NCBI GenBank assembly: GCA_018645325.1
Contig: JABGOU010000036.1
Coordinates: forward strand, 1-41,733
Length of the DNA stretch: 41,733 nt
Direction of reading: 5' to 3'
From: Desulfobacula sp.
GTDB lineage: Bacteria > Desulfobacterota > Desulfobacteria > Desulfobacterales > Desulfobacteraceae
Shown: in pieces, positions 7,260 to 36,141 of the stretch
Layout: each line of letters opens with the position of its first letter
How positions within the stretch are numbered: position 1 is the first letter of the stretch
The notes under the pieces: model-generated
The model's input: only the letters and a program-made list of their open reading frames with translations
The model's database searches: none
Told to the model about the DNA's origin: nothing
Position numbers and translations under genes: made by a program

Positions 7260-8459
7260 ATGAATACAAAAGAAATTATCGAACTGGAAAATAAATTCGG
7301 TGCAAAAAATTACAAACCCCTGGATGTAGTTCTTGAAAAAGGCAAAGGCATTTGGGTCTGGGATGTTGAAGGCAACAAATACATGGATTGTCTGGCTGCC
7401 TATTCTGCAGTTAATCAGGGACACTGCCATCCAAAAATCATTAAAAAAATGAAAGAACAGCTTGATAAGCTTTGTATCACATCCAGGGCATTTAGAAACG
7501 ATCAACTTTCTTTGTTTTATAAAGATATCTGCAACCTTACCCATTCACATATGGTTCTCCCCATGAACAGCGGCGCAGAAGCTGTGGAGACAGTGATTAA
7601 AGCCGTCAGGAAATGGGGGTACACAACAAAAAATATTGATGAAGGAAAAGCTGAAATCATTGTTTGTGAAAACAATTTCCATGGGAGAACACTGACCATT
7701 ATCGGATTTTCCACAGAAGAGCAGTACAAGGAAGGATTTGGTCCTTTTACACCGGGATTCAAGGCTATTCCTTTTGGAGATGCCAGGGCTCTTGAAAATG
7801 CCATAACAAAAAATACTGTGGCATTTCTTGTGGAACCCATCCAGGGTGAAGCCGGTGTAATTGTTCCTCCCAAAGGATATTTAAGGGCTGTCAGAGACAT
7901 TTGCACAAAAAACAATGTAGCCCTGGTTTTTGATGAAATCCAGACAGGACTTGGCAGAACAGGAAAACTATTGGCTGAAGAACATGAAGGCATTGAATCC
8001 GATGTCACCTTAATAGGCAAGGCTTTATCCGGTGGTTGCTATCCAGTATCAGCCGTTCTTTCCAATGCTGAGGTTCTAGGTGTCTTTCTTCCGGGTGAGC
8101 ATGGTTCTACTTTTGGCGGAAATCCCGTTGCATGTGCTGTAGCAAGAGAAGCCCTTAAGGTCCTGGTGGATGAGGGCATGATTGAAAATGCTGCGAAACT
8201 GGGAGATTATTTCCAGAAGAAACTAAAAGAGATATCAAGCCCATATGTGAAAGAAGTCCGAGGAAAAGGGCTTTTAATAGGTGTTGAGCTGAAACACGAT
8301 GCAGGAGGAGCAAGGCCTTTTTGCGAAACACTAATGAAAAAAGGTCTTTTGTGCAAAGAGACCCATGAACATGTTATCCGTTTTGCCCCGCCCCTGGTCA
8401 TAACAAAAAAAGACATTGACTGGGCACTTGAAAGAATCAGGGAGGTTCTTATCCCTTAA
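7260..8459 (+). CDS. rocD: Ornithine aminotransferase
   Basis: This 399-aa class-III PLP aminotransferase converts ornithine and 2-oxoglutarate to glutamate semialdehyde and glutamate, linking arginine and proline metabolism. It opens like RocD ([20 protein letters not shown]), followed by [14 protein letters not shown], the PLP-phosphate loop NSGAEAVET, the Asp-containing [14 protein letters not shown] and the Schiff-base lysine in [22 protein letters not shown] lies just before the ATG. The last 11 nt overlap the end of the convergent His-rich gene. Acetylornithine or 4-aminobutyrate aminotransferase is less likely given the N-terminus. Confidence 0.9.
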
Positions 8460-8823
8460 GTTTTTTTAACGCCTCTCGAAGCTGCCGGGTGACGTCTTCG
8501 GACAATTGCCCGGCTTTTTCAATATTTTCAGCTATCTTATCAAGCCCAGCCTCTTTTGCCCGCTCCGCCCAGGTATAAAATGTATCTTTGTGACTGTCAT
8601 TGTGATCAATCCAGTGGCCAAACAATTTCTCCAGCTTTTGTTCAAAGGTCATTTCCCGGGGTTGGTCATGGGAATGATTATGGTCATGCCCGTGGCTATT
8701 ATGTGAGTGGTCGTGATCATGGGAATGACCATGGTCGTGTGAGTGGTCGTGATCATGGGAATGACCATGGTCGTGCGAGTGGCCTTGATCATGGGAATGA
8801 TCTTTATCGTGATGATTTGTCAT
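8449..8823 (-). CDS. Histidine-rich, probably metal-binding small protein
   Basis: A 124-aa protein in two parts. Residues 1 to about 55 are a His/Asp/Ser/Gly-rich tract, mainly [12 protein letters not shown] units encoded by 36-nt repeats. Residues 58-124 are an acidic/basic amphipathic domain beginning [19 protein letters not shown] and ending KKLKG. Such His tracts bind Zn, Ni or Co in metal stores and chaperones, but the C-terminal domain is not one I can name. No signal peptide or membrane segment is visible, so it is probably cytoplasmic. The LarA racemase nearby needs nickel-derived cofactor, though a link is speculative. Low-complexity shadow frames exist on the other strand. Confidence 0.8.
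8705..8812. repeat. 36-nt tandem repeats coding the His-rich tract
   Basis: Two almost identical 36-nt units (8705-8740, 8741-8776) are followed by a degenerate third (8777-8812). Each codes for 12 residues of alternating His with Asp, Gly or Ser. This is coding repetition, not a CRISPR, since units are directly abutting without spacers. Confidence 0.9.
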
Positions 8824-19558: not shown

Positions 19559-22006
19559 ATGGGAAAAAGTAAAACAAATATCGTTAAAACAACCACCTGG
19601 TCTGCAGGACCGGGATGCCACGGTGGCTGCGGCGTTCTTGCTCATATTAAAGACAATAAGCTCATAAAGATAGAAGGTGACCCGGATCACCCATGGAACC
19701 AGGGTCGTCTTTGTGCAAGAGCCCTTGCCATGACCCAGTATATTGATCACCATGATAGATTGAAATCCCCCCTTAAACGCGTTGGGAAACGGGGAGAGGA
19801 TCAATTTGAGGAAATATCATGGGATGAGGCCTTTGATATTATCGAAGAAAAGATGAAAACCATCAGGGATGATTTCGGTCCTGAAAGCATGATTTTTTCT
19901 ATGGGAACCGGTCGGGATATCGGACCGTGGATTTGCATGCTGGCCTATGCATATGGCAGCCCCAATGTCATGTTTGCTTTGAGCGGAAATGCATGTTACA
20001 GCCCGAGAATTGCAGCCCTTGATACGGTGCAGGGAGATTATTGTGTATTTGATGCTGCCCAGTGGCTGCCGGGTCGGTATGATCACCCGGAATACAAGGT
20101 GCCCGAATGCATGATCATCTGGGGGTATAATATTGCTGCCACCTGCCCTGACAACCTGTTTGGACACTGGATCATTGATTTAATGAAAAAAGGGACAAAA
20201 ATCATCACTATTGATCCAAGACTTTCCTTTTTTGCCTCGCGTTCAAAACACTGGCTCCAGATCAGACCGGGAACGGATGCCGCCCTTGCCCTTGGATTTT
20301 TACACGTGATCATCAAGGAGGAGCTTTATGACCAAAATTTTCTTGAAACCTTTACAGATGCCCCAAGACTGGTCAGAAACGACACAGGTAAATTATTAAG
20401 AGAATCTGATGTTGTAAAAGAAGGATCAAGGGAAAATTTTGTTGTTTTTGACAACCCAAAAAAGGCCATCATTATCTGGAACACTCAGAAACAAGAATAT
20501 TCAATTAGCGACTCAAACCCCGCATTTACAGGTACCTTTGAAATACAACTATTAAACGGGAATACAATTGCATGCACAACGGTATGGGATAAATTCAAGA
20601 AAAACTGTGCTTTCTATACACCCCAAAAAGTTGAGGAGATCACCCTTGTTTTGGCACCCGATATTGAAAAGGCTGCCCGGTTTTATGCAAAAGCCAAACC
20701 AGCGTCCATCCACTGGGGCGTTCCCATTGACATGACTCCGGAAATCACTCCCCTGTGCCATGCCATAGCCGCTTTATGGGCTTTGACCGGCAACCTTGAT
20801 GTACCCGGTGGAAACGTATTTACCCGCTCTGCATTTAATGCCGTTGCCTATGCTTTGCCAGGAGCCGAAGGTGTAATCAAATTAAAAGATCAGGCCCAGG
20901 ACAAAACACGGATCGGCAAAGATGAATATGGGCCCTTTAATAAATTTATATGGCGATGTCAGACGGACAAGGTCATTGAACAGATTTTCAGTGAAAAGCC
21001 CTACCCTGTCAAGGGATTATGGATGCAGACCTGTAACCCTTTATCCGGTATTGGACTTGATCCGAAACTCTGGCAAAAGGCCTTGGAAAAACTGGATTTT
21101 ATTGTCGGGGTTGACCTTTTTATGACACCTTCCTTAAGATATGCCGATATCATATTATCCGCTGCCACCTTTCTTGAAAAAGACGGGGTACGATCCTGGT
21201 GGGTTCCCTTACAGACCATTAACAAGGCCTTAACAGTGGATGGCTGCAGGCCTGATGTGGAGATTAACTTTGAGCTGTCAAAACGCTTTGACCCTGATTT
21301 TAAATGGGAAACCATTCATGATCTTTTTGATGAAATCCTTGAACCCTCTGGAATGAACTTTGAAAAACTTTCTAAAAAAGGCTGGGCCCTGCCCCCGGAA
21401 AACCATGCTTCAAGACCCTATTTTCGTCATGAAAAAGGATTGTTAAGATCAGATGGGAAACCAGGATTTACAACACCATCTGGGAAATTTGAACTTTACG
21501 CAACCTTAAGAGAAGATTGGGGCCTTGAGGCCATGCCTTATTTTAAAGAACCGCCCTTTACTCCAATCTCAAGACCGGACCTGTTTAAAGATTACCCTTT
21601 GATTCTGGGGACGGGCAGACGGTCCCCGGCCTTTTTCCATTCAGAACATCGCAATATCCCATGGCTGAGAACTCTTGACCCGGACCCTGTAGTGGAAATC
21701 CACCCTGAAACCGCAAGAAAAAATAAAATCTCAAATGGCGAATGGGTGATAGTTGAAAACTGGATGGGAAAAGCCAGATTCAAGGCCAAAGTAACAAAGA
21801 TCGTTCCGCCATGGATGGTTATGGCTGCCCATGGATGGTGGTTCCCGGAAGAAAAAGATGACCCTTTATTTCACACATTTGAATCCAATATCAATATGCT
21901 GATTCCCATGAATGAACAGGGAAAAGACGGACTGGGAACACCCATGAAGCATCTTTTATGCAGAATAAAAAAAGAAGTATTGGGGGTTAAAAACAATGAA
22001 ATCTAA
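19559..22006 (+). CDS. DMSO-reductase-family molybdo/tungstopterin oxidoreductase, copy 1
   Basis: This 815-aa catalytic subunit has the usual order: Fe-S domain (1-60), bis-MGD-binding core, and C-terminal molydop-binding domain (about 670-800, from PLILGTGRRSP). Cys146 in SGNACYSPR sits where the metal ligand is expected. The N-terminal cluster motif is unusual: Cys20-x3-Cys24-x27-Cys52 is kept, but the first Cys of the normal CxxCxxxC is Gly17. No Tat signal is present, so it should be cytoplasmic. The start codon of the small Fe-S partner overlaps its end by 11 nt. The substrate is unknown; oxidoreductase, hydroxylase, dehydroxylase and hydratase chemistry all occur in this superfamily. 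Confidence 0.85.
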   Translation: MGKSKTNIVKTTTWSAGPGCHGGCGVLAHIKDNKLIKIEGDPDHPWNQGRLCARALAMTQYIDHHDRLKSPLKRVGKRGEDQFEEISWDEAFDIIEEKMKTIRDDFGPESMIFSMGTGRDIGPWICMLAYAYGSPNVMFALSGNACYSPRIAALDTVQGDYCVFDAAQWLPGRYDHPEYKVPECMIIWGYNIAATCPDNLFGHWIIDLMKKGTKIITIDPRLSFFASRSKHWLQIRPGTDAALALGFLHVIIKEELYDQNFLETFTDAPRLVRNDTGKLLRESDVVKEGSRENFVVFDNPKKAIIIWNTQKQEYSISDSNPAFTGTFEIQLLNGNTIACTTVWDKFKKNCAFYTPQKVEEITLVLAPDIEKAARFYAKAKPASIHWGVPIDMTPEITPLCHAIAALWALTGNLDVPGGNVFTRSAFNAVAYALPGAEGVIKLKDQAQDKTRIGKDEYGPFNKFIWRCQTDKVIEQIFSEKPYPVKGLWMQTCNPLSGIGLDPKLWQKALEKLDFIVGVDLFMTPSLRYADIILSAATFLEKDGVRSWWVPLQTINKALTVDGCRPDVEINFELSKRFDPDFKWETIHDLFDEILEPSGMNFEKLSKKGWALPPENHASRPYFRHEKGLLRSDGKPGFTTPSGKFELYATLREDWGLEAMPYFKEPPFTPISRPDLFKDYPLILGTGRRSPAFFHSEHRNIPWLRTLDPDPVVEIHPETARKNKISNGEWVIVENWMGKARFKAKVTKIVPPWMVMAAHGWWFPEEKDDPLFHTFESNINMLIPMNEQGKDGLGTPMKHLLCRIKKEVLGVKNNEI

Positions 22007-22334
22007 CAAAAACGGCCTTCTGATTGATTATGAATATTGTACAGGATGTTTTGCATGCACGGTTGCCTGCTGCCAGGAACATGGATGGGAAGCTCCTTTA
22101 AGCGGCATTAAAGTGATGGAAATCGTTCAGGATTTACCAAAAGACAAAGCATATCTCACCTTTTTGCCCTTCCCCACGGAGCTTTGTGTGTTGTGCGCAA
22201 AAAGGACTATAAAAGGTCTTGATCCGACCTGTGTTAAACACTGCATGGCAAATTGCCTGTCATATGGAAATTTAAAGGAACTGGCCAAAGAACTTGAAAA
22301 AAAACCAAGAATGGTTCTCTGGTCTCCCAGATAA
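21996..22334 (+). CDS. Small two-cluster ferredoxin-like subunit, partner of copy 1
   Basis: A 112-aa Fe-S protein resembling the first and last parts of DmsB/NrfC subunits condensed into one domain. Cys15, 18, 21 and 25 (CTGCFACTVAC) form one quartet. CVLC and the later CVKHC region give a second, with extra cysteines at CC (25-26) and ANC. Electrons from the molybdoenzyme probably leave through it. The ATG lies inside the end of the upstream gene, so the two are translationally coupled. There is no membrane subunit in the module, which suggests a soluble enzyme. Confidence 0.83.
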   Translation: MKSNKNGLLIDYEYCTGCFACTVACCQEHGWEAPLSGIKVMEIVQDLPKDKAYLTFLPFPTELCVLCAKRTIKGLDPTCVKHCMANCLSYGNLKELAKELEKKPRMVLWSPR

Positions 22335-22374
22335 ATTCAAACAGATAGGTTAAAATCCTATAAGGAGAAATGAC

Positions 22375-24810
22375 ATGAAAGATGATGGCGTAAAAATAAT
22401 TAAAACCACAACCTGGTCACCGGGTCCGGGTTGTCATGGCGGCTGCGGAATATTGGTTCATGTCAAGGATGAGAAAGTCATAAAGGTCGAAGGCGACCCG
22501 GATCATCCCTGGAATCAGGGAAGATTATGCTCGCGATGCCTTTCCATGACACAATACATGTACCATAAAGACAGATTGAAAAAACCATTAAAAAGGGTGG
22601 GTGAACGTGGAGAAGGCAAATTTGAAGAAATTTCATGGGATGAAGCATTTGATCTGATCGAAACAAAAATGAAAAAGATACGGGATGATCATGGCGCGGA
22701 ATCGTTTATCTTTCACCAGGGAACAGGCCGGGATATCGGTGGCTGGATTTCCATGCTGGCCTATGCCTATGGAAGTCCCAACTGGATGTTTGGGCTTTCC
22801 GGCATCTCATGCTATACGCCTCGCCTGATGATGATGTCCATCACCCAGGGGGATTTTGCAGTTGTGGACGCATCCCAATGGCACGAAAAAAGATATGATG
22901 ACCCTGAATATGTAATGCCTGAAACAGTGACCGTCTGGGGCCAAAACCTTCCTGCAACCTGTCCGGACGGCTTCTTTGGCCACTGGTATGTAGACCTGAT
23001 GAAAAAAGGGACCCAGTTTCTGGTAATTGATCCTCGATGTACCTGGATTGCTTCCAGGGCAAAGCTCTGGCTTCAACTGAGGCCGGGCACTGATGCCGCA
23101 CTTGCCCTTGGATTTATCCATGTCATGGTCAAAGAGGATCTAATAAACACGGAATTTATTGAGAAATGGACAAACTCCCCGTTTCTGGTGAGAACAGATG
23201 GAGAATGCCCAGTTCTATTAAAAGAGAGCGATCTCAAAAAAGACGGATCTAAGACCAACTTCATTGCTCACGACCCTGTTTCAGACAGCACTATAGTATG
23301 GGACACTGAAAAACAAGCATATGACAGATATGGGTTAAAACCTTCCATGGAGGGAGAATTCAATATATCCCTTACTGATGGTTCAAAGATAAAAGCAAAA
23401 ACAGTCTGGACTGTTTATAAAGAGAATGTTGAGCAGTATACACCTGAAAAAGTATCTAAAATCACCTGGGTACCTGCAGATAAAATTCAAAAAGCTGCCC
23501 GGATGTACGCAAAAAGCAAACCCTCAGCCCTGCACTGGGGACTCCCCATTGATACCATCCCTTCAACCATTCCTACATCCCAGGCAATAAATCATCTCTG
23601 GTGTCTGACCGGAAATCTTGACAACCCCGGTGGTAATGCCATTGCAAGATATGCCTATGATGTCGTGACCTATCCCTATCATGCCGGTGGTTCGGTCTTA
23701 AGTCTTCCCCCTGAAGTAGCGGCAAAAAGGATCGGGATGAATGATTATGGTCCGATAAAAGATTTCAGAGCATGGGCCCAGCCGGATAAAGTTTTGGAAC
23801 AGATCTTTTCAGGTGATCCCTATGAAGTCAAAGGCATGTGGATACAGACTGCCAATCCCATTGCCTGCACGGGCATGGAACCCAAAAAATGGCGGGATGC
23901 CATTAAAAAACTTGATTTCACCGTTTGTGTAGATCTTTTTATGACACCAACTGCCATGCTTTGTGATGTTATTTTGCCTGCGGCTACTTTTCTTGAAAAA
24001 AATTCATTAAGGGCATGGTGGGTGCCGTTGAATGCCATTAAAAAAGTGGTGGAAGTGGGTGAATGCAAATCTGATATCGATATCAATATTGAACTTTGCA
24101 AACGATTCATGAAAGACTTTCCCTATGAGAATACAGAACAGCTTTTTGACAAACTTTTAAAATCTGCAGATATCACGTATAAAGATCTTTGTGACAAGAC
24201 CTGGATGATTCCTCCCAAGGGTCACCCCAGCAGACCTTATTTTCGGCATGAAAAAGGTTTGCTCAGAGAAGATAAACACCCGGGATTCAGAACACCATCC
24301 GGTAAAATTGAGCTTTTTTCCTCCTGGCTTGAAAAATGGAAACTTGATCCAATGCCCTATCATGAGGAACCTCCCTATAGCCCTGTCAGTACACCCGATC
24401 TCTTTAAGGATTACCCCTTAATACTTTGTACGGGTCGGCGAATGGGGCCTTATTTCCACTCAGAACACAGACAGGTACCATGGCTTCGTGAACAGCAAAC
24501 CGATCCCGTGCTTGAAATCCACCCGGATACAGCACAAAAATACGGGATATCAAATGGAGAAAAAGTCTGTGTTGAAAACTGGCTTGGAAAAATCACGGTT
24601 AGAGCTCTGCTCACACAAGTTATTCATCCTGATATTGTAATGGCTGAGCATGGCTGGTGGTTTCCGGAAAAAGAAGGTAAGGAACCAAGTCTCTTTGGGG
24701 TCTGGGAAGTTAATGTTAACCAGCTTATCCCCATGTCCCATGAAGGGAAAGGTGGTTTGGGTTCCCCCATTAAAAGTATGTTGTGCAAAGTATACCCTAA
24801 CGTTGCATAA
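22375..24810 (+). CDS. DMSO-reductase-family oxidoreductase, copy 2 (paralogue)
   Basis: The 811-aa protein is collinear with copy 1 over its whole length and shares long identical blocks (for example GDPDHPWNQGRLC and RPYFRHEKGLLR). Cys20, Cys24 and Cys52 are kept, Gly17 again replaces the first cluster Cys, and an extra Cys55 is present. Cys146 (SGISCYTPR) is the predicted Mo/W ligand. Differences concentrate around residues 110-190 and 430-470, so the copies may act on different substrates or conditions. AAGGAG precedes the ATG. The last 19 nt form one arm of a large palindrome that follows. Function is not recognised beyond the superfamily. Confidence 0.85.
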   Translation: MKDDGVKIIKTTTWSPGPGCHGGCGILVHVKDEKVIKVEGDPDHPWNQGRLCSRCLSMTQYMYHKDRLKKPLKRVGERGEGKFEEISWDEAFDLIETKMKKIRDDHGAESFIFHQGTGRDIGGWISMLAYAYGSPNWMFGLSGISCYTPRLMMMSITQGDFAVVDASQWHEKRYDDPEYVMPETVTVWGQNLPATCPDGFFGHWYVDLMKKGTQFLVIDPRCTWIASRAKLWLQLRPGTDAALALGFIHVMVKEDLINTEFIEKWTNSPFLVRTDGECPVLLKESDLKKDGSKTNFIAHDPVSDSTIVWDTEKQAYDRYGLKPSMEGEFNISLTDGSKIKAKTVWTVYKENVEQYTPEKVSKITWVPADKIQKAARMYAKSKPSALHWGLPIDTIPSTIPTSQAINHLWCLTGNLDNPGGNAIARYAYDVVTYPYHAGGSVLSLPPEVAAKRIGMNDYGPIKDFRAWAQPDKVLEQIFSGDPYEVKGMWIQTANPIACTGMEPKKWRDAIKKLDFTVCVDLFMTPTAMLCDVILPAATFLEKNSLRAWWVPLNAIKKVVEVGECKSDIDINIELCKRFMKDFPYENTEQLFDKLLKSADITYKDLCDKTWMIPPKGHPSRPYFRHEKGLLREDKHPGFRTPSGKIELFSSWLEKWKLDPMPYHEEPPYSPVSTPDLFKDYPLILCTGRRMGPYFHSEHRQVPWLREQQTDPVLEIHPDTAQKYGISNGEKVCVENWLGKITVRALLTQVIHPDIVMAEHGWWFPEKEGKEPSLFGVWEVNVNQLIPMSHEGKGGLGSPIKSMLCKVYPNVA

Positions 24811-24970
24811 AAATTATATAAAAAAGATGAAACAGTCAAAATTTTTACCCTTCGGGAAAGCCATGAAGCCCTCATCTTCTTCGTTATCAAGATTTTGCAG
24901 TAGTCGACTACAGCTGCAACCTTGCTGCCTTGAATATGAGAGCTTCATGGCTTTTGCAACATTAGGGTAT
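24792..24970. repeat. Large palindrome between copy 2 and its ferredoxin
   Basis: Nested arms: ATACCCTAACGTTGCAT (24792-24808) against TTTTGCAACATTAGGGTAT (24952-24970), with one mismatch and small offset, and AAAGCCATGAAGC (24857-24869) against GCTTCATGGCTTT (24942-24954), 13 bp perfect. CTCAT pairs with ATGAG, and the centre is TAGTCGACTA (24901-24910). The outer arm lies in the coding end of copy 2. The matching gap between copy 1 and its ferredoxin has no such element. It may be an inserted repeat that lowers or separates ferredoxin expression. Confidence 0.8.
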
Positions 24971-24992
24971 ATAAAACGAAAGGATAAATAAA

Positions 24993-25328
24993 ATGTCAGA
25001 ATATGGAATGCTTATCGATTATGAATATTGTACGGGCTGCAAGACTTGTGAAGTTGCCTGTAAACAGGAATACGCACGCCCTGCCGGAAAAGTGGGAGGA
25101 GTCGAAGTAACAGAATACATTCACACTCTTCCCAATGACAAATTGTTTATCACCTATATTCCAAATTTTACGAGAGCCTGTATTTTTTGTGCCGGTCGCG
25201 TAAAAGAGGGTCTGGAACCATCCTGTGTAAAACATTGCATGGCAAGGATATTAACATTTGGTAAAATTGATGACCTGCAAAAACTAATCCCGAAAAAAAG
25301 AAAAGCCATGCTATGGACCAAGGGATAA
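24993..25328 (+). CDS. Small two-cluster ferredoxin-like subunit, partner of copy 2
   Basis: A 111-aa paralogue of the protein at 21996-22334. Cys13, 16, 19 and 23 (CTGCKTCEVAC) and the later CIFC, SCVKHC cysteines give eight in all, enough for two [4Fe-4S] clusters. It starts after a good AAAGGA site, 182 nt beyond copy 2 across a large palindrome. It ends 5 nt from the convergent cytochrome gene. The close likeness to the first ferredoxin shows that the two-gene module was duplicated as a unit. Confidence 0.83.
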   Translation: MSEYGMLIDYEYCTGCKTCEVACKQEYARPAGKVGGVEVTEYIHTLPNDKLFITYIPNFTRACIFCAGRVKEGLEPSCVKHCMARILTFGKIDDLQKLIPKKRKAMLWTKG

Positions 25329-28837: not shown

Positions 28838-31285
28838 ATGAGCAGTCAATTACCAACCCACGCCCAGGTAGTTATTATCGGTGGCGGTATTGTCGGTTGC
28901 AGCACGGCATATCATCTAGTAGAACTTGGATGGAAAGATGTAGTAGTGCTGGAACGTAAAAGAATTTCTTCGGGTACGTCCTGGGCCGCAGCAGGCCTTT
29001 TGGGACAGCTTTGGCCCACAAGTCCTTTGACCAAACTTGCAAAGTATGGAGCTGACCTCTATGCCGGGCTGGAAGCAAAAACAGGACAGCCCACAGGATA
29101 TAAGCGAAACGGATCACTCAGAGTGTCTCGGACCCAGGCCAGAAGAAGTGAATACTTGAGAGCCCTGGGTATGGCACGTGCCTTTGGTATCAAAATGGAA
29201 GAAATCAGCTTTGAAGAAGCCAAACGATTTATACCGGTTATGAACACGGATGATTTGACTGGTGTATGGTATCAACCCGATGACGGTGTTACAAATCCCG
29301 AAGACACGACCCAGGCCCTGGCCAAAGGAGCGCGTATGGGAGGGGCAACTATTCTGGAAAATATTAAGGTTCTTGATATCGAGATGAGCCAGGGTATGGT
29401 AACCGGTGTAAAAACCGATAAAGGAAATATCCAGTGTGAGTATGTTGTCAATTGTGGTGGCATGTGGGCAAGAGAAGTTGGCAAAATGGTGAATGTAAGC
29501 CTCCCTCTGGTTGCGGCAGAGCATATGCACATGACAACGGAACCCATTGAAGGTGTTTATAAAGGAATGCCCTATTTAAGGGATATGGATGGTTATATCT
29601 ATATCAAAGAAGAAATGGAAGGACTTCTGATGGGCGGATTTGAGCCCATGGCAAAGACCTGGGGAGTTAAAGGTATTCCTGAAAATTTTGAATATACCCA
29701 GCTTGATGAAGACTGGGACCAGATGGATCTGTTCATTCAAAATGCCATCATAAGGGTTCCAGCCTTTGCTGAAGCAGGTGTCACCAATCTAACCACTGTT
29801 CCTGAAAGCTTTACACCAGACACAGCTTATCTTCTGGGGGAAGCTCCTGGAGTCAAAAACTTTTTTGTGGCCTGTGGTATGAATTCTGTTGGAATCACAA
29901 GCGCAGGAGGTGCAGGAATGGCCCTTGCCACATGGATTGTTCAGGGCTACCCTGAAGAGGATCTATGGCCTGTGGATGTCAGACGATACAATAAATGGCA
30001 GAACAACCTCAAATACATTGAAGAGCGTGTCAATGTGGAATCAGTTGGCAACCTTTATACGGATCACTGGCCTTTTAAACAGCCCACGTCATCCAGGGAT
30101 GTTTTAAAAACCCCTATTCATGACAGGTTAAAAGACCTGGGCGCATGTTTTGGTGTAGTTTCAGGCTGGGAACGAGCCAACTGGTTTGCTCCAAAAGGAG
30201 TGGAACCCAAGTATGAATACAGCTGGGGTCGTCAAAACTGGTTTGAATTTTCTGCCAAAGAGCACATGAACGTAAGGGAAAATGTAGGTATTTATGATCT
30301 GACTTCAATGGGTAAATTCCTCATGCAGGGCAAGGATTCTCAAAAGGTTCTCCAGATGATCTGTGCCAATGATGTGGCAGTGCCTGTAGGCAAAGTTGTA
30401 TACACCCAGATGCTGAACAAAAGAGGCGGCATCGAAGCTGACCTCACGGTAACTAAAATGGAGGAAAACAAATTCTTTATTGTAACGGCCGGTGCAACCA
30501 CCACAAGGGATTTTGACTGGATCATGCGCCATATACCCGAAGATGCTAATGCTGTTTTAACCGATGTAACCTGGTCCTATATAATGCTTGGAGTCATGGG
30601 CCCAAATTCCAGGGATCTTTTGAACAAAATAACTGATGAGGATCTTTCAAATGAAGCTTTCCCCTTTGCCACTGCAAAACAAATTCATGCAGGATATGCA
30701 ACGGCCTTTGCCGTGCGCATGAGTTTTGTTGGAGAGCTGGGATGGGAACTATATATCCCAACACCCTTTGCCCAGGACATTTTTGATAAACTTATGGAAG
30801 CAGGGAAAGAATTTAATGCAGGGCTCTGCGGTCTCCACGCCCTGGATTCTCTGCGCTTAGAAAAGGGTTACCGCCACTGGAGCAGCGACATTTCCCCGGA
30901 TACAACCCCCTATGAGGCAGGTCTTGGATTTGCAGTTCGGCTCAACAAGGATGATTTCATCGGCAAAGCCGCCCTTGTCAAGCAAAAGCAAGAAGGCATA
31001 AAACAAAAACTGGTTATTTTTACAATTGATGATCCTGAACCTTTGATCTACCACGATGAGCCCATTTATTGTAATGGTGAAATTGTTGGTGAAAACACCC
31101 ATGGTTCCTATGCACATGTCACAGGCAATTCCATTGGCATGGTTTACCTTTCCAATGAAAAAGGAATTACGGATGAATGGATAATGGATGGGGACTATGA
31201 AATAGAGGTGGAAGATAAAAAATATCCCATCACCATTCATTTAAAAGCTCCTTATGACCCTGAAGGAAAATCAATCAAAGTATAG
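28838..31285 (+). CDS. Dimethylglycine/sarcosine dehydrogenase-like flavoprotein with GcvT domain
   Basis: The 815-aa protein has an N-terminal DAO-type FAD domain (GGGIVGCSTAYHL at 15-27), and a C-terminal GcvT-like folate-binding region (about 425-810, with GELGWELYIPTPFAQ and LRLEKGYRHW). Relatives oxidatively remove N-methyl groups from dimethylglycine or sarcosine, pass formaldehyde to tetrahydrofolate and reduce ETF. The relatives bind FAD covalently through the His of WHAAG; here residue 50 is Ala (SWAAAGLL), so FAD should be non-covalent. It leads the operon with mttB and etfBA, which supports an N-methyl amine substrate and ETF as acceptor. It ends TAG, backed up by TGA two codons on. 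Confidence 0.87.
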   Translation: MSSQLPTHAQVVIIGGGIVGCSTAYHLVELGWKDVVVLERKRISSGTSWAAAGLLGQLWPTSPLTKLAKYGADLYAGLEAKTGQPTGYKRNGSLRVSRTQARRSEYLRALGMARAFGIKMEEISFEEAKRFIPVMNTDDLTGVWYQPDDGVTNPEDTTQALAKGARMGGATILENIKVLDIEMSQGMVTGVKTDKGNIQCEYVVNCGGMWAREVGKMVNVSLPLVAAEHMHMTTEPIEGVYKGMPYLRDMDGYIYIKEEMEGLLMGGFEPMAKTWGVKGIPENFEYTQLDEDWDQMDLFIQNAIIRVPAFAEAGVTNLTTVPESFTPDTAYLLGEAPGVKNFFVACGMNSVGITSAGGAGMALATWIVQGYPEEDLWPVDVRRYNKWQNNLKYIEERVNVESVGNLYTDHWPFKQPTSSRDVLKTPIHDRLKDLGACFGVVSGWERANWFAPKGVEPKYEYSWGRQNWFEFSAKEHMNVRENVGIYDLTSMGKFLMQGKDSQKVLQMICANDVAVPVGKVVYTQMLNKRGGIEADLTVTKMEENKFFIVTAGATTTRDFDWIMRHIPEDANAVLTDVTWSYIMLGVMGPNSRDLLNKITDEDLSNEAFPFATAKQIHAGYATAFAVRMSFVGELGWELYIPTPFAQDIFDKLMEAGKEFNAGLCGLHALDSLRLEKGYRHWSSDISPDTTPYEAGLGFAVRLNKDDFIGKAALVKQKQEGIKQKLVIFTIDDPEPLIYHDEPIYCNGEIVGENTHGSYAHVTGNSIGMVYLSNEKGITDEWIMDGDYEIEVEDKKYPITIHLKAPYDPEGKSIKV

Positions 31286-31336: not shown

Positions 31337-32806
31337 ATGAAGAGACCTATTAAGTCCGGCAAGCTTCAAAGCGGCGGCTTCAGTCTTAACGTCCTCACGG
31401 AGGATGAATTGTATGAGATTCATCTGGGGACCCTTGAAATACTGAAAACCACGGGGGTGTATGTGGAAAGTGAGGAGGCCAGAGAAATTTTTAAAATCGG
31501 TGGCGCCAGTGTCAATGAAAAGACAAAGGTGGTTACCTTTCCCAACTATCTGGTGGAAGAGTGCATCAATTCGACTCCGGATACCTTTCACGCCTATGGC
31601 CGAATCCCTGAAAGCGATGTGGCATTAGAGGCAAACAGGGTAACCTTTACTAACTTTGGTGAAGGGATTATGTTTGTGGACCCCTATACAGGCGAACACC
31701 GGGAAACAACTAAAAAGGATGTAGAGATGGCTTCCCGGCTCATCGATTACCTGGAAAATATTGAAACCTATGAACGGTGTATGCTCTCCCATGACAAGCA
31801 CCATTCCGTACAGGCCCTGCACAATGCTGAAGCCTCTTTGACCAATACTACCAAACACCACTGGCTGGGACCTGTGGATCGGTATCAATGCGGCAAAATC
31901 CTGGAGATGTGCTGGGCCATTGCAGGGGGTGAAGACAAATTTCGGCAAAGACCTTTCCTTACCTTTGTCACCTGTCCAATAAGTCCCTTAAAGCTGTCCT
32001 CCCACCATTGTGAAATTATTATAGAGGCTGCCATGAACGGTATAGGGGTCAACTGCATCGGCATGGCTATGTCAGGCGGGTCCTCTCCCATCCACATTGC
32101 AGGTACCCTTGTGCAGCAAAACGCAGAAGTGCTGGCAAGCCTTGTATTGAGCCAGCTGGTTAAAAAAGGTGCTGCTTTTATTTATGGCAGTTCCACCTGC
32201 CCTCTTGACTTAAAACAGGCAACTGCCACGGTTGGATCACCGGAAACCGCTTTGATCAATGCCGCGGTGTCGAGACTTGCCAGGTATTACAGCCTGCCCG
32301 TTTTTGCAGCCGGTGGCTAGGGCGACAGCAAAGTTACCGATTATCAGTCGGGTCACGAAAAAACCATCACAGGTCTCTTACCGGCGTTGTCAGGGTGCAA
32401 CGTAATTTACGGTTCTGGAATGCTGGAAATGGGAATTACTTTCGACCTGGCACAACTTATATTGGACAATGAGGTGGCCGGATTAATCAAAAGAGCTGTA
32501 GGCGGTATTGAGGTCAATGATGAAACCCTTTCTTTGGATACGATCAAGGAGGTCGGACCCTTTAAGGATTATCTTGCCCACGAAACCACCTATAAGAACA
32601 TGCGGTTGACCACAAGTCCTAAGCTAATGGATCGAAAGATGAGACCCAGATGGGAAAAAGCCGGTTCAAAAGACGCTTATGAGCGGGCCTGCGATGAGGT
32701 AAAACATATCCTCGAGACCTATCAACCCCCACAACTTTCAGATGAGGTACTCAAAAATGTACGCGCCATTATTGAAGGTGCCGAAGCTGAACTGGGAGTT
32801 AAGTAA
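31337..32806 (+). CDS. mttB: Trimethylamine methyltransferase MttB with pyrrolysine at codon 328
   Basis: Two fragments (327 codons, and the part after 32320) join in one frame across a single TAG into a 489-residue MttB; archaeal MttB is about 495. Upstream of the TAG is FAAGG and downstream GDSKVTDYQSGHEKT, the context of the pyrrolysine in archaeal MttB (residue 334 there). No other stop interrupts the frame, and conservation continues to the end. MttB moves a methyl group from trimethylamine to a corrinoid protein, with pyrrolysine in the active site. GGAG precedes the ATG. pyl genes and a corrinoid partner are needed but lie outside the window. A pseudogene is unlikely since only this codon is affected. 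Confidence 0.93.
32318..32320 (+). other. In-frame UAG read as pyrrolysine
   Basis: The amber codon falls exactly at the pyrrolysine site of MttB. The frame then stays open for 161 further codons to the TAA at 32804-32806. Automatic gene calling will split the gene here. Confidence 0.92.
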
Positions 32807-32877: not shown

Positions 32878-33645
32878 ATGCGCATTTATGTGTGTGTCAA
32901 ACATGTCCCGGATACTGCTGCAAATATTAATATTGTTAATGATACTGGCTATGATAGGCAAGTAAAATACGTTGCCAACCCCTATGATGAATATGGGGTG
33001 GAAGAGGCGGTCACATTGGTGGAAAAGGCAGGAGAAGGTGAGGTCATTGCCGTGTGTGTGGGAAATGAAACCTCTGCAAATACTTTAAAATCAGTCATGG
33101 CAATGGGAGTTCACCGCAGCATACTGGTGAAAACAGATGAACAATTCTCCTCCAGCGCTTTGATTGCAAAGGCCCTGGCAAAAGTAATTGAAGAAGACGG
33201 GTCAGGCGATCTTATTTTTATGGGAAAACAATCTGTGGATAGTGAAGGAATGCAGACACCATACAGACTGGGAGCTGAACTGAACCTTCCCGTTGTCACA
33301 GGAGTTGTGAATTTTTCTTTGGAAGGTTCAAAAACTATCGTTCAACGTGAGATAGATGGTGGGGCAAGGGAATCTTTAAGCATGGGAACCCCATGTATCA
33401 TCGGTGCAACCAAAGGGTTAAACGAACCCCGATTCCCCAAACTGCCCGCCATCCTCAAAGCCAAGAAAAAAGAGATTAAAATAATTGAAATATCCAGTTT
33501 GGAAATTGTGGATGATGCTGGATGCCGACTCAAAAAACTTGAACCCGTAAAAGAACGATCCAATGCCAGAATCCTGGAAGGAACCACCGAGGATATCGTT
33601 AACTCCCTGGTAAAAATTTTAAGAGAAGAAGAAAAGGTTATTTAA
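32878..33645 (+). CDS. etfB: Electron transfer flavoprotein, beta subunit
   Basis: The 255-aa protein begins MRIYVCVKHVPDTAA and contains NPYDEYGVEEAVTLVEKAGEGEV and the AMP/nucleotide-loop region FMGKQSVDSEGMQTPYRLGAEL, all typical of EtfB. With EtfA it accepts electrons from flavoprotein dehydrogenases. Its place directly behind the dimethylglycine-dehydrogenase-like gene and mttB suggests a dedicated acceptor for that enzyme. etfA follows after 9 nt with a strong AAGGAG site. I see no sign of a bifurcating type (no linked Bcd/Fix-like partner), but this cannot be decided from sequence alone. Confidence 0.92.
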   Translation: MRIYVCVKHVPDTAANINIVNDTGYDRQVKYVANPYDEYGVEEAVTLVEKAGEGEVIAVCVGNETSANTLKSVMAMGVHRSILVKTDEQFSSSALIAKALAKVIEEDGSGDLIFMGKQSVDSEGMQTPYRLGAELNLPVVTGVVNFSLEGSKTIVQREIDGGARESLSMGTPCIIGATKGLNEPRFPKLPAILKAKKKEIKIIEISSLEIVDDAGCRLKKLEPVKERSNARILEGTTEDIVNSLVKILREEEKVI

Positions 33646-33654
33646 GGAGAAGTC

Positions 33655-34599
33655 ATGTCAAAGATAGGTGTATTCATTGAAACTGCGGATCAAAAGATTA
33701 AGAAAAGTGTTTTGGGAATCATTTTTGCAGCTTCACGGGGTGGAGATGTTGTGGGATTCGTACTGGACGGACTTGCCTCAAAATACAAAAAGAGTCTGGA
33801 AGAATACGGTGTCACAGAGCTTGTGAACCTCACCGCTTCCGGCATCGAGTTCTCAAAATATCCTGAAGCAGCCGGAGAAGCCCTGGCTCAAGGGGTTAAG
33901 GCATTTGGAGTGGCTGCCCTTTTAGGCGTTTCCAGTCCCATAGGCAATGACCTTCTGGCCAGGACAGCCATTGCATTAAAAGCCCCCCTGGCCCTGGACT
34001 GCATGGATGTGGATTTCACAGACAATAGTGTTAAAAAATCTCACTTTTCTGGCAAGGCCATTGCCACAATAGAAATGACAGCCAGTCCATTTGTGTGCGG
34101 GATACGGCCCAATAGTTTTGATGCAGTACAAAAACCTGTGACCTGTAATCTTATAGATCACAATCTTACGGTTTCAACAGAAGGTGCCATTACCATAACT
34201 TCAGTTGACAAAAAAGGTTCGGGCCAGAAAGATCTTACCGAGGCCAATGTCATTATCACGGGAGGCAGGCCCATTGGATCCAGTGAAAACTTTGCACTGT
34301 TAGAAGACTGCGCTAAAATTCTGGATGCAGCAGTGGGAGCCTCAAGAGCTGCGGTGGATTCAGGTTATGCACCCCATTCAATGCAGGTGGGACAGACCGG
34401 CAAAATTGTCAGCCCCAAACTCTATATCGGATGTGGCCTGTCCGGTTCTGTGCAGCATTTTGCCGGTATGAAGACCTCCAAGGTAATCGTTGCTATTAAC
34501 ACGGACAAAGATGCCCCTATTTTCTCAAAATCAGATTACGGTATCATCGGTGACCTGTTTGAGGTGGTGCCGGCACTGACAAAAGCCTTGCAAAAATAG
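33655..34599 (+). CDS. etfA: Electron transfer flavoprotein, alpha subunit
   Basis: The 314-aa protein has the C-terminal FAD-binding half of EtfA: GGRPIGSSENFALLEDCAKIL, GASRAAVDSGYAPHSMQVGQTG, and KLYIGCGLSGSVQHFAGM through INTDKDAPIFSKSDYGIIGDL. The N-terminal half matches the EtfA fold. It forms the heterodimer with EtfB and passes electrons on, probably to a quinone oxidoreductase elsewhere. It ends in TAG with a TAA four codons later. mttB2 follows after 90 nt. Confidence 0.92.
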   Translation: MSKIGVFIETADQKIKKSVLGIIFAASRGGDVVGFVLDGLASKYKKSLEEYGVTELVNLTASGIEFSKYPEAAGEALAQGVKAFGVAALLGVSSPIGNDLLARTAIALKAPLALDCMDVDFTDNSVKKSHFSGKAIATIEMTASPFVCGIRPNSFDAVQKPVTCNLIDHNLTVSTEGAITITSVDKKGSGQKDLTEANVIITGGRPIGSSENFALLEDCAKILDAAVGASRAAVDSGYAPHSMQVGQTGKIVSPKLYIGCGLSGSVQHFAGMKTSKVIVAINTDKDAPIFSKSDYGIIGDLFEVVPALTKALQK

Positions 34600-34689: not shown

Positions 34690-36141
34690 ATGACTCCCAA
34701 TACCTTTTGCAATTCCAGGACAAGAAAACTTGTCAGAACTAAAATCGTGGGAGATGAAGATCTTCCCAGAATCCATGAGGCAAGCATAGATCTTCTGGAA
34801 AATACCGGAATTATATTTGAACACGAAAAAGCCCTTGAAATCTTTAAAAAACAAGGTGCAAAGATACAAGGAAAAACCGTATTTATTCCCAGGGCCATGG
34901 TGGAAAAAGCTATGGATCAGACTCCTGCAGTCTATCGGCATACAGCAAGGAATAAAAACCAATCCGTCACCATCGGGGACGGTATTGCACCCCACCCTAA
35001 TCTGGGATCTGTGTTCTGTGAAGACATGGACAAAGGAAAACGCAGGGGACTTCTTGAGGACTATGCCAATTTTCAAAAGCTTTCCCAGGCCAGTGATCTT
35101 GTGAAACTAACAGGAGCCATACCCGTGGCACCCAGTGATGTTCAACCATCTGAGCAAGCACTTTATATGATTTATGAAACCATTAAACACACGGACAAAC
35201 CCTTCATTGGAATCTCCACCAACGCTAAAAAAGCAGAAGAGTCCCTGGCAATGGTTGAGATGGTATTTGGTGAAACCTATCTTAAGGATCATCATTGTGT
35301 AGGTGTCAGTACAACTGCCTTGAGCCCGTTGAAATTCGGGACACATACCCTTGAATCCATCATTGCCTATGCCCAAAAAAATCAGCCGGTCTATATCATT
35401 CCCAGTGCAATGGCAGGTGTGACTTCTCCAATGACGCTTTTTGGCAGCATTATCCAGCAGAATACTGAAATTCTGGCCGGCATGACGCTAATTCAGCTGA
35501 TCAATCCAGGTGGTCCGGGAGTGTATTGCCCGGCATCTACCATGGCGGACTTGAGAACTGCCATCTGCGTCTATGCACCACCGGAACAATTTCTTATCAA
35601 TTCCACCTGTCTCCAGATGGCCATTGATTTTTATAAAGTTCCCACAAGGATTATGGCCGGCATGACCGACTCAAAGGAAGTGGATATTCAAGCAGGCTAC
35701 GAAACCATGCAGAATATGTTAATGGGACTTTTGACAGGGGGACACATGGTGGAACAGGTGTTTGGTGTTTTAGATGCCATCATGACCATCTCCTATGAAA
35801 AATTCATCATTGACGAAGAAATGCTGAGCCGGGCAATACGGATCTGCGAAGGGGTGGATACCTCAGAGGGTGAAATGTCTCTGGATGTGATAAAAGAGAC
35901 AGGTCCCGGCGGAAGTTACCTGACCCACCCCGACACCTTTAAACGATTCAAAAACCAGTGGCTTCCCACTGTCTCGTGCTGGACTTCCTATGACAAATGG
36001 GAATCCTCAGGAAAACAGAGCGTTATGGAAAGAGCAAACAAAAAATATAAGCAAATTCTTGAAACTCGGCCTGAAATGATGATTTCAAAGAGCCTGGACA
36101 GGGATCTTACAGCCTTTCTGAAAAAGGTAAAAGGAATGTAG
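34690..36141 (+). CDS. Non-pyrrolysine MttB-family methyltransferase (MtgB-like)
   Basis: The 483-aa protein belongs to the MttB superfamily (KIVGDEDLPRIHEASIDLLENTGI start; ESIIAYAQKNQPVYIIPSAM; GLLTGGHMVEQVFGVLDAI). At the pyrrolysine position it has Met325 (IMAGMTDSK, against AAGG-Pyl-GDSK), so it is a sense-codon member. Characterised members of this type demethylate quaternary amines such as glycine betaine, feeding a corrinoid protein. Glycine betaine to dimethylglycine would connect well with the flavoprotein that opens the operon, but the substrate is inferred. It ends TAG, then TAA four codons on. Its 3' end overlaps the convergent neighbour by 35 nt. Confidence 0.88.
   Translation: MTPNTFCNSRTRKLVRTKIVGDEDLPRIHEASIDLLENTGIIFEHEKALEIFKKQGAKIQGKTVFIPRAMVEKAMDQTPAVYRHTARNKNQSVTIGDGIAPHPNLGSVFCEDMDKGKRRGLLEDYANFQKLSQASDLVKLTGAIPVAPSDVQPSEQALYMIYETIKHTDKPFIGISTNAKKAEESLAMVEMVFGETYLKDHHCVGVSTTALSPLKFGTHTLESIIAYAQKNQPVYIIPSAMAGVTSPMTLFGSIIQQNTEILAGMTLIQLINPGGPGVYCPASTMADLRTAICVYAPPEQFLINSTCLQMAIDFYKVPTRIMAGMTDSKEVDIQAGYETMQNMLMGLLTGGHMVEQVFGVLDAIMTISYEKFIIDEEMLSRAIRICEGVDTSEGEMSLDVIKETGPGGSYLTHPDTFKRFKNQWLPTVSCWTSYDKWESSGKQSVMERANKKYKQILETRPEMMISKSLDRDLTAFLKKVKGM

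Follow-up and report, generated by a model that had tools for sequence, protein, structure and literature searches.

The window is the whole 41,733-nucleotide contig (C88) of the 4.39-Mb draft genome of a marine, sulfate-reducing Desulfobacula sp. (G000; 157 contigs, 90.3% complete). It carries a line of five genes that probably constitute an operon (Table 1): a dimethylglycine dehydrogenase (DMGDH)-like gene, a pyrrolysine-type trimethylamine:corrinoid methyltransferase gene (mttB) with an in-frame UAG, the electron transfer flavoprotein (ETF) genes etfB and etfA, and a second MttB-family gene that has no UAG, with gaps of 51, 71, 9, and 90 bases between them. The best PDB match of the first gene product is dimethylglycine dehydrogenase (4p9s, E 2e-145). 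Among solved structures, the last gene product comes closest by alignment score to glycine betaine methyltransferase, matching 9yce and 2qne at about 318 bits and the pyrrolysine-type MttB 7xcl at 134 bits.

Table 1. Features of the mttB locus, with positions in the window
Feature	Position	Strand	Basis
Dimethylglycine-dehydrogenase-like flavoprotein (DAO + GCV_T), first gene of probable operon	28838..31285	+	Pfam
mttB with in-frame UAG, pyrrolysine-type trimethylamine:corrinoid methyltransferase	31337..32806	+	TIGR02369, PF06253, alignment with PDB 7xcl/7xcm
UAG codon 328, very probably a pyrrolysine codon	32318..32320	+	Aligned with Pyl334 of 7xcl
Rfam PYLIS_3 (RF02510) match	32318..32417	+	69.9 bits against a gathering threshold of 38
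Hairpin GCGUUGU-CAGGGU-GCAACGU, about 65 nt after UAG	32384..32403	+	Fold and comparison
etfB, electron transfer flavoprotein beta subunit	32878..33645	+	PF01012
etfA, electron transfer flavoprotein alpha subunit	33655..34599	+	PF00766, PF01012
Second MttB-family protein without UAG	34690..36141	+	PF06253

The TAG at codon 328 is the sole stop before the end of the mttB frame, and read-through gives a product of 489 residues, with 161 codons between the TAG and the terminal TAA. With 682.1 bits against a cut-off of 525, this product passes trimeth_pyl (NCBIfam TIGR02369), a curated equivalog model, and it also matches Pfam MTTB. Residue 328 lies opposite a residue that the PDB chains 7xcl and 7xcm of M. 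barkeri MttB show as X or K, and that is Pyl334 according to Li et al. 2023 (PMC9842639; PDB 7xcl/7xcm/7xcn). The initial annotation had described a lone in-frame TAG in a full-length MttB, placed at the residue that is pyrrolysine in archaea, and both the model score and the structural alignment bear this out. The residues to which the same study assigns roles (Gly110, Met249, Tyr364, and Gly372 in M. barkeri) have kept counterparts at positions 108, 243, 358, and 366, all positions having been counted by eye on the PDB alignment; both Gly108 and Tyr358, taken as the test of active-site membership (Gly110 and Tyr364 of M. barkeri), are present. The pyrrolysine position is thus common to the two enzymes, which differ in gene neighbourhood and at Thr111 of M. 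barkeri, where the window protein has Glu109. Phylogenetically, the window protein falls within a subclade of 24 TAG-containing MttB proteins that forms one branch (99% SH-aLRT). Glu occupies the Thr111 position in 71 of 87 bacterial TAG-MttB proteins, and Glu109 was dropped as a candidate mark of the subclade because 47 of the 63 TAG-MttB proteins outside it also have Glu. The M. barkeri study reported Gly110 to be invariant in a set of 66 sequences, but 22 of the same 63 proteins have Ser at this position.

A scan of named genomes recovered 34 best homologue loci, and codon 328 is TAG in all of them. The six peptide patterns used in the scan do not span residue 328, so the presence of UAG at this place cannot be attributed to chance. 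The nearest homologues are those of two Desulfobacula metagenome-assembled genomes (95%) and one Desulfocapsaceae metagenome-assembled genome (88%), followed by Desulfocicer vacuolatum (87%) and Desulforhopalus singaporensis (83%). Downstream of the TAG, dN/dS ranges from 0.046 to 0.101 in six of six comparisons, indicating purifying selection on the 161 codons that the initial annotation had called open and conserved, as they indeed are. Upstream of the TAG, dN/dS is 0.030 to 0.068 in the five computable comparisons (the sixth being saturated), and in each of these five it is below the downstream value. The somewhat higher ratio after the TAG would suit a UAG that is a true stop or a decaying remnant, in a lineage that has lost pylD and pylSn and whose mttB is becoming a pseudogene. 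This is very unlikely, given that selection beyond the UAG is still strong and that the same genome keeps other genes of this kind open. Among 28 MTTB-family matches in the draft genome, which include some pieces at contig ends and amount to a large set of methylamine or betaine methyltransferases, five are full-length mttB genes with one TAG each (the window gene and four more). These five and a TAG-containing mtbB are all open under read-through.

The genes for pyrrolysine synthesis and insertion bear on the same question. A tRNA-Pyl gene (pylT) with a CUA anticodon was found by ARAGORN downstream of the TAG-mtbB (L025:640-713). Over their cut-offs are pylSc (319 bits, cut-off 178), pylC, which adjoins it (393 bits, cut-off 248), and pylB, which is on a different contig (508 bits, cut-off 348); the fact that these four genes pass their models argues against a lost system. 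No pylD scores over cut-off in the 90.3%-complete draft assembly, nor does the assembly contain an intact pylSn. Only a pylSn remnant is located directly before the intact pylB (contig C103:133611-133709; L051:11612-11710); it covers 33 of the 89 positions of the model and contains a TAG. Comparison with the congener G014 indicates that most of the 3' part of this remnant is gone, and it is a second, broken copy. Taken at face value these gaps favour the loss of pyrrolysine decoding, and of the 22 genomes with PylSc over cut-off, this draft is the only one without PylD or an intact PylSn. Gene order points elsewhere. A contig of G014 has the order mtbB (3' part), tRNA-Pyl, a thioesterase-like gene, pylB, pylD, and pylSn. 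The end of contig C90 of the draft genome repeats this order from mtbB through tRNA-Pyl to the thioesterase-like gene (a name given by eye) and breaks off after 17 codons of a second pylB (its start also read by eye); it matches G014 at 79% over 630 positions and at 87% over 385 positions. Because the break falls where G014 has pylB-pylD-pylSn, the absence of pylD and intact pylSn is best read as an effect of the contig edge, and synteny suggests that the sequence just past this edge most likely carries pylD and a second pylSn. The idea that pyrrolysine decoding has been lost was therefore set aside as not the most likely reading. The initial annotation had proposed that this cell decodes UAG as pyrrolysine, had suggested a search for the pyl genes, and had named their absence from the complete genome as contrary evidence. 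That search supports the proposal with pylT, pylSc, pylC, and pylB, and on its face contradicts it in the matter of pylD and intact pylSn, which the synteny at the contig edge explains.

Pyrrolysine genes and TAG-mttB also go together across relatives. In a set of 97 genomes (this draft and 96 relatives), TIGR02369 is matched over cut-off in 26, each with at least one TAG, and PylSc is found over cut-off in 21 of these 26, compared to 1 of the 71 others (Fisher test, with kinship ignored). Of the five TAG-mttB genomes that lack PylSc over cut-off, G010 has PylSn, G021 has PylD and PylSn, G036 has PylD, and G023 and G088 have none of PylSc, PylD, and PylSn. PylSn without PylSc or PylD over cut-off was observed as one copy in G042 (2 contigs, listed as 100% complete) and as two copies in G010, where TAG-mttB is present; such orphan PylSn proteins may have a role of their own.

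UAG is nonetheless a common stop codon in this genome. It ends 64 of 323 open reading frames of at least 200 amino acids in 540 kb, or 58 of 317 once the six that belong to mttB and mtbB are set aside, versus 16 of 110 in G007, a genome in which PylSc, PylSn, and PylD were not found; no avoidance of UAG as a stop is seen. With so many UAG stops a general leakiness is imaginable, by which a near-cognate or suppressor tRNA would insert a standard amino acid at codon 328, and PDB chain 7xcm does carry K at the pyrrolysine position. Such a reading is exceedingly improbable in view of the tRNA-Pyl with its CUA anticodon and the PylSc that are present, of the retention of TAG in 34 of 34 homologues with no drift to a sense codon, and of the co-occurrence of TAG-mttB with PylSc from genome to genome. 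UAG 328 of mttB is very probably decoded as pyrrolysine, by tRNA-Pyl that would be charged by the split synthetase PylSn plus PylSc.

Pyrrolysine-containing MttB has already been published for Desulfobacula-like Deltaproteobacteria (Kivenson, Paul and Valentine 2021, PMC8318568), so the finding of the initial annotation is a correct new example of a known enzyme. In the sections of that paper concerned with MttB and its genes, the bacteria have the same lineage neighbourhood, the same enzyme, and the same place for the UAG (327 of 485 there), and pylB, pylC, pylD, the synthetase, and tRNA-Pyl are reported. What differs here, relative to those sections, is that a single draft genome contains five full-length mttB genes with TAG as well as a TAG-mtbB, the scattering of pyl genes over contigs, the DMGDH-like/ETF operon, and a hairpin downstream of the UAG.

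The operon raises the question of substrate. Four of the 34 loci (L151, L152, L153, and L164) show the full order DMGDH-like gene, mttB, etfB, etfA, and five more (L154, L156, L159, L160, and L161) show parts of it, counts that are limited by flank length because many of the loci are short. Desulfocicer vacuolatum DSM 3385 and Desulforhopalus singaporensis DSM 12130 are among the relatives with this operon. Codon 261 of mttB encodes Gln in 24 of 24 subclade members and His in 61 of the 63 other TAG-MttB proteins. That the subclade forms one supported branch with its own residue at this position, and that DMGDH-like and ETF genes share an operon with mttB in close orthologues, would fit an enzyme acting on dimethylglycine or another tertiary amine instead of trimethylamine. 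This alternative is unlikely, since the window protein passes the trimethylamine equivalog model TIGR02369 and since mttB genes beyond the subclade, too, often have a DMGDH-like gene within 6 kb (16 of 63, versus 9 of 24 inside, with many flanks short), so that the DMGDH link is not special to the subclade. For the latter reason the DMGDH-ETF context, considered as the mark of a new substrate, was demoted to a rival explanation. The non-UAG MttB-family gene next door likewise has Gln in the codon-261 motif (by eye), and in the DMGDH-like protein Ala replaces the His of the motif TWHAAGL of rat dimethylglycine dehydrogenase, a His that carries FAD covalently.

The window MttB thus probably takes its methyl group from trimethylamine. 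Trimethylamine (or a close tertiary amine) would most likely bind at the pyrrolysine imine, and MttB would transfer one methyl group to a corrinoid protein whose gene lies elsewhere; the DMGDH-like flavoprotein and ETF would then probably oxidise a remaining N-methyl group to methylene-tetrahydrofolate. No gene for the corrinoid protein MttC was detected within 6 kb of the window mttB by tblastn with three MttC-like queries. The same holds within 6 kb for 46 of 63 TAG-MttB genes outside the subclade and 18 of 24 inside it, many of them with short flanks, and a nearby MttC was counted as usual, not defining, for membership in the pyrrolysine-type MttB family.

A cell in which only a few genes use UAG for pyrrolysine has to distinguish these codons from ordinary stops. 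Because UAG is not avoided as a stop in this genome, some mark for the UAGs that are to be read through would make sense. Synonymous codon choice was compared relative to the codon usage of each gene, separately for the subclade (24 genes) and the other TAG-mttB genes (63), and is most conserved in a region that opens shortly ahead of the UAG and extends some 33 codons beyond it. Stretches of 33 codons beginning at codon 322 rank first in both sets, and the stretch 329-361 ranks 9th (subclade) and 11th (other TAG-mttB) of 456, compared to 190th of 456 in nine homologues without TAG. When every possible stem of five pairs with a loop of 3 to 8 was scanned over the whole gene against synonymous shuffles, one stem led by a wide margin: it was present in 27 of 36 representatives (under 80% identity) versus 1.1 expected, and in 71 of 87 genes of the full TAG-mttB set versus 3.0 expected; the second-best stem is the inner register of the same hairpin. 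The conserved form, RUUGGC-AGGU-GCCAAY, is a six-pair stem spanning +68 to +83 as counted from the U of the UAG. The hairpin of the window is a local form of it that lacks one of the six conserved pairs, keeps the other five, and has two additional pairs on its outer side. One of the 87 TAG genes (L175) was left out when the hairpin site was compared, on account of a gap near the site.

The outer pair of the conserved stem is formed by the third positions of codons 350 and 355, and it varies in a compensatory manner. Among 85 distinct rows it is G-C in 39, A-U in 36, G-U in 2, and another combination in 8. It is Watson-Crick in 77 of 87 TAG genes, where 18.5 would be expected from codon usage, and in 2 of 9 genes without TAG, where 1.6 would be expected. 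No other codon pair among the 330 testable pairs five codons apart is as strong. Related sequences inflate such counts, an objection that is answered in part by coupled changes seen across separate sister pairs. Among 41 disjoint nearest-neighbour pairs, eight differ at the first site of the outer pair, and all eight differ at the second as well, six by A-U/G-C exchanges and two with involvement of a non-pairing combination. Two more nearest-neighbour pairs differ at the second site alone, with G-U as the result.

The hairpin is largely confined to mttB genes with UAG. The set of genes without TAG was enlarged from 9 to 68, of which 28 encode Gly353 and Asn355, and identical stretches were counted once. 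All six pairs are present in 62 of 90 distinct TAG genes but in only 1 of 68 homologues without TAG, and at least five pairs in 83 of 90 versus 6 of 68. The A of the loop is kept in 82 of the 90 TAG genes, in contrast to 4 of the 28 genes without TAG that encode the same Gly and Asn. Of the 44 matches to the exact 16-mer RTTGGCAGGNGCCAAY across the 97 genomes, 43 fall within the 59 TAG-mttB places. The 16-mer occurs in 25 of 26 TAG-mttB genomes and none of the 71 others, and the reversed control pattern has no match. The looser pattern RTTGGCNNNNGCCAAY is found in this genome at three places, all of them TAG-mttB genes (reversed control, 1 match), and is not matched by the window mttB or its paralogue on contig C57. 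The possibility that TTG at codon 351 is a start for reinitiation was set aside as the less likely reading, since TTG, CTG, and ATG are seen at this codon but so is TTA with a matching GCT, a pattern that pairing would explain better. Nine letters, GGGTGCAAC, are shared by the hairpin arm at 32393-32401 and the T arm of tRNA-Pyl at L025:640-713 (by eye), which may be due to chance.

Folding programs give the hairpin little prominence. RNAalifold on 86 sequences predicted only two of the hairpin pairs (-0.1 kcal/mol), and four of four single-sequence folds were unremarkable compared to shuffles (z -0.96 to -1.63), so the case for the hairpin rests on comparison. As to its role, the hairpin may favour decoding of the UAG over termination, and the chance that it is such a recoding element is put at about even. 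A role apart from recoding, as a DNA palindrome, as an RNase or pause site, or as a guard against transcription termination after failed read-through, has a probability only slightly below one half. Bacterial SECIS hairpins lie nearer to their codon than the roughly 65 nt found here, and the element is an inverted repeat in which G-U is rarer at the outer pair than expected (2 versus 6.9), a rarity that would also suit a DNA palindrome. These features are set against the near-restriction of the exact form to TAG-mttB, by which a genome-wide operator is excluded, against the retention of the loop A in TAG genes and not in comparable genes without TAG, and against the presence of a hairpin in mtbB at nearly the same distance from the UAG.

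For mtbB, the comparison covered genes with TAG only. A stem at +74 to +89 is present in 17 of 20 TAG-mtbB genes (2.8 expected, z 9.4) and is the second in its list; its loop, AGAU, is already contained in a stem-loop of the Rfam element PYLIS_2 (RF02509, mtbB), where it occupies positions 81-84 as counted on the printed line. The mtbB of this genome matches PYLIS_2, as the window mttB matches PYLIS_3 (RF02510, mttB), each match starting at the UAG. A stem at -4 from the UAG is first in the mtbB list by a hair (8 of 20, 0.7 expected, z 9.6), and RF02509 may already cover part of it. Unlike PYLIS_2, PYLIS_3 does not describe the hairpin in question: no hairpin at +68 to +83 (model positions 69-84) appears in its structure line, the last stem of which pairs positions 77, 79, and 80 with 95, 96, and 98 (counted on the printed line), and only three of the six mttB hairpin pairs would form in its printed consensus (by eye). 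The PYLIS_3 match of the window may rest on conserved coding sequence. In the parts of Have et al. 2013 (PMC3639795) that deal with these elements, the mttB region is said to show no sign of common structure, and PYLIS elements are reported as not essential. The mttB hairpin appears to be new, as no earlier description was found among the papers listed by literature searches, judged by titles and the openings of abstracts.

Tentatively, and with a probability nearer to one third than to one half, bacterial pyrrolysine genes may share a cis-acting recoding hairpin that marks their UAGs for pyrrolysine where UAG is still a common stop. Its form may be about six pairs closed by a four-base loop, AGGU or AGGN in mttB (+74 to +77) and AGAU in mtbB (+80 to +83). 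To judge by the Rfam consensus, archaeal mttB may have only a weak form of it or none, and the hairpin could perhaps be recognised by an RNA-binding factor that acts in trans, for instance a PylSn paralogue. A hairpin with compensatory synonymous changes, found almost only in mttB genes with UAG, provides a target by which the recoding question can be addressed with reporters.

Other genes of the window were noted by eye. Two large oxidoreductase genes of the molybdopterin type, each followed by a small ferredoxin-like gene, occupy 19559-25328 and look like a tandem duplication. A short protein with long His-Asp repeats, encoded at 8449-8823, is probably metal-binding.
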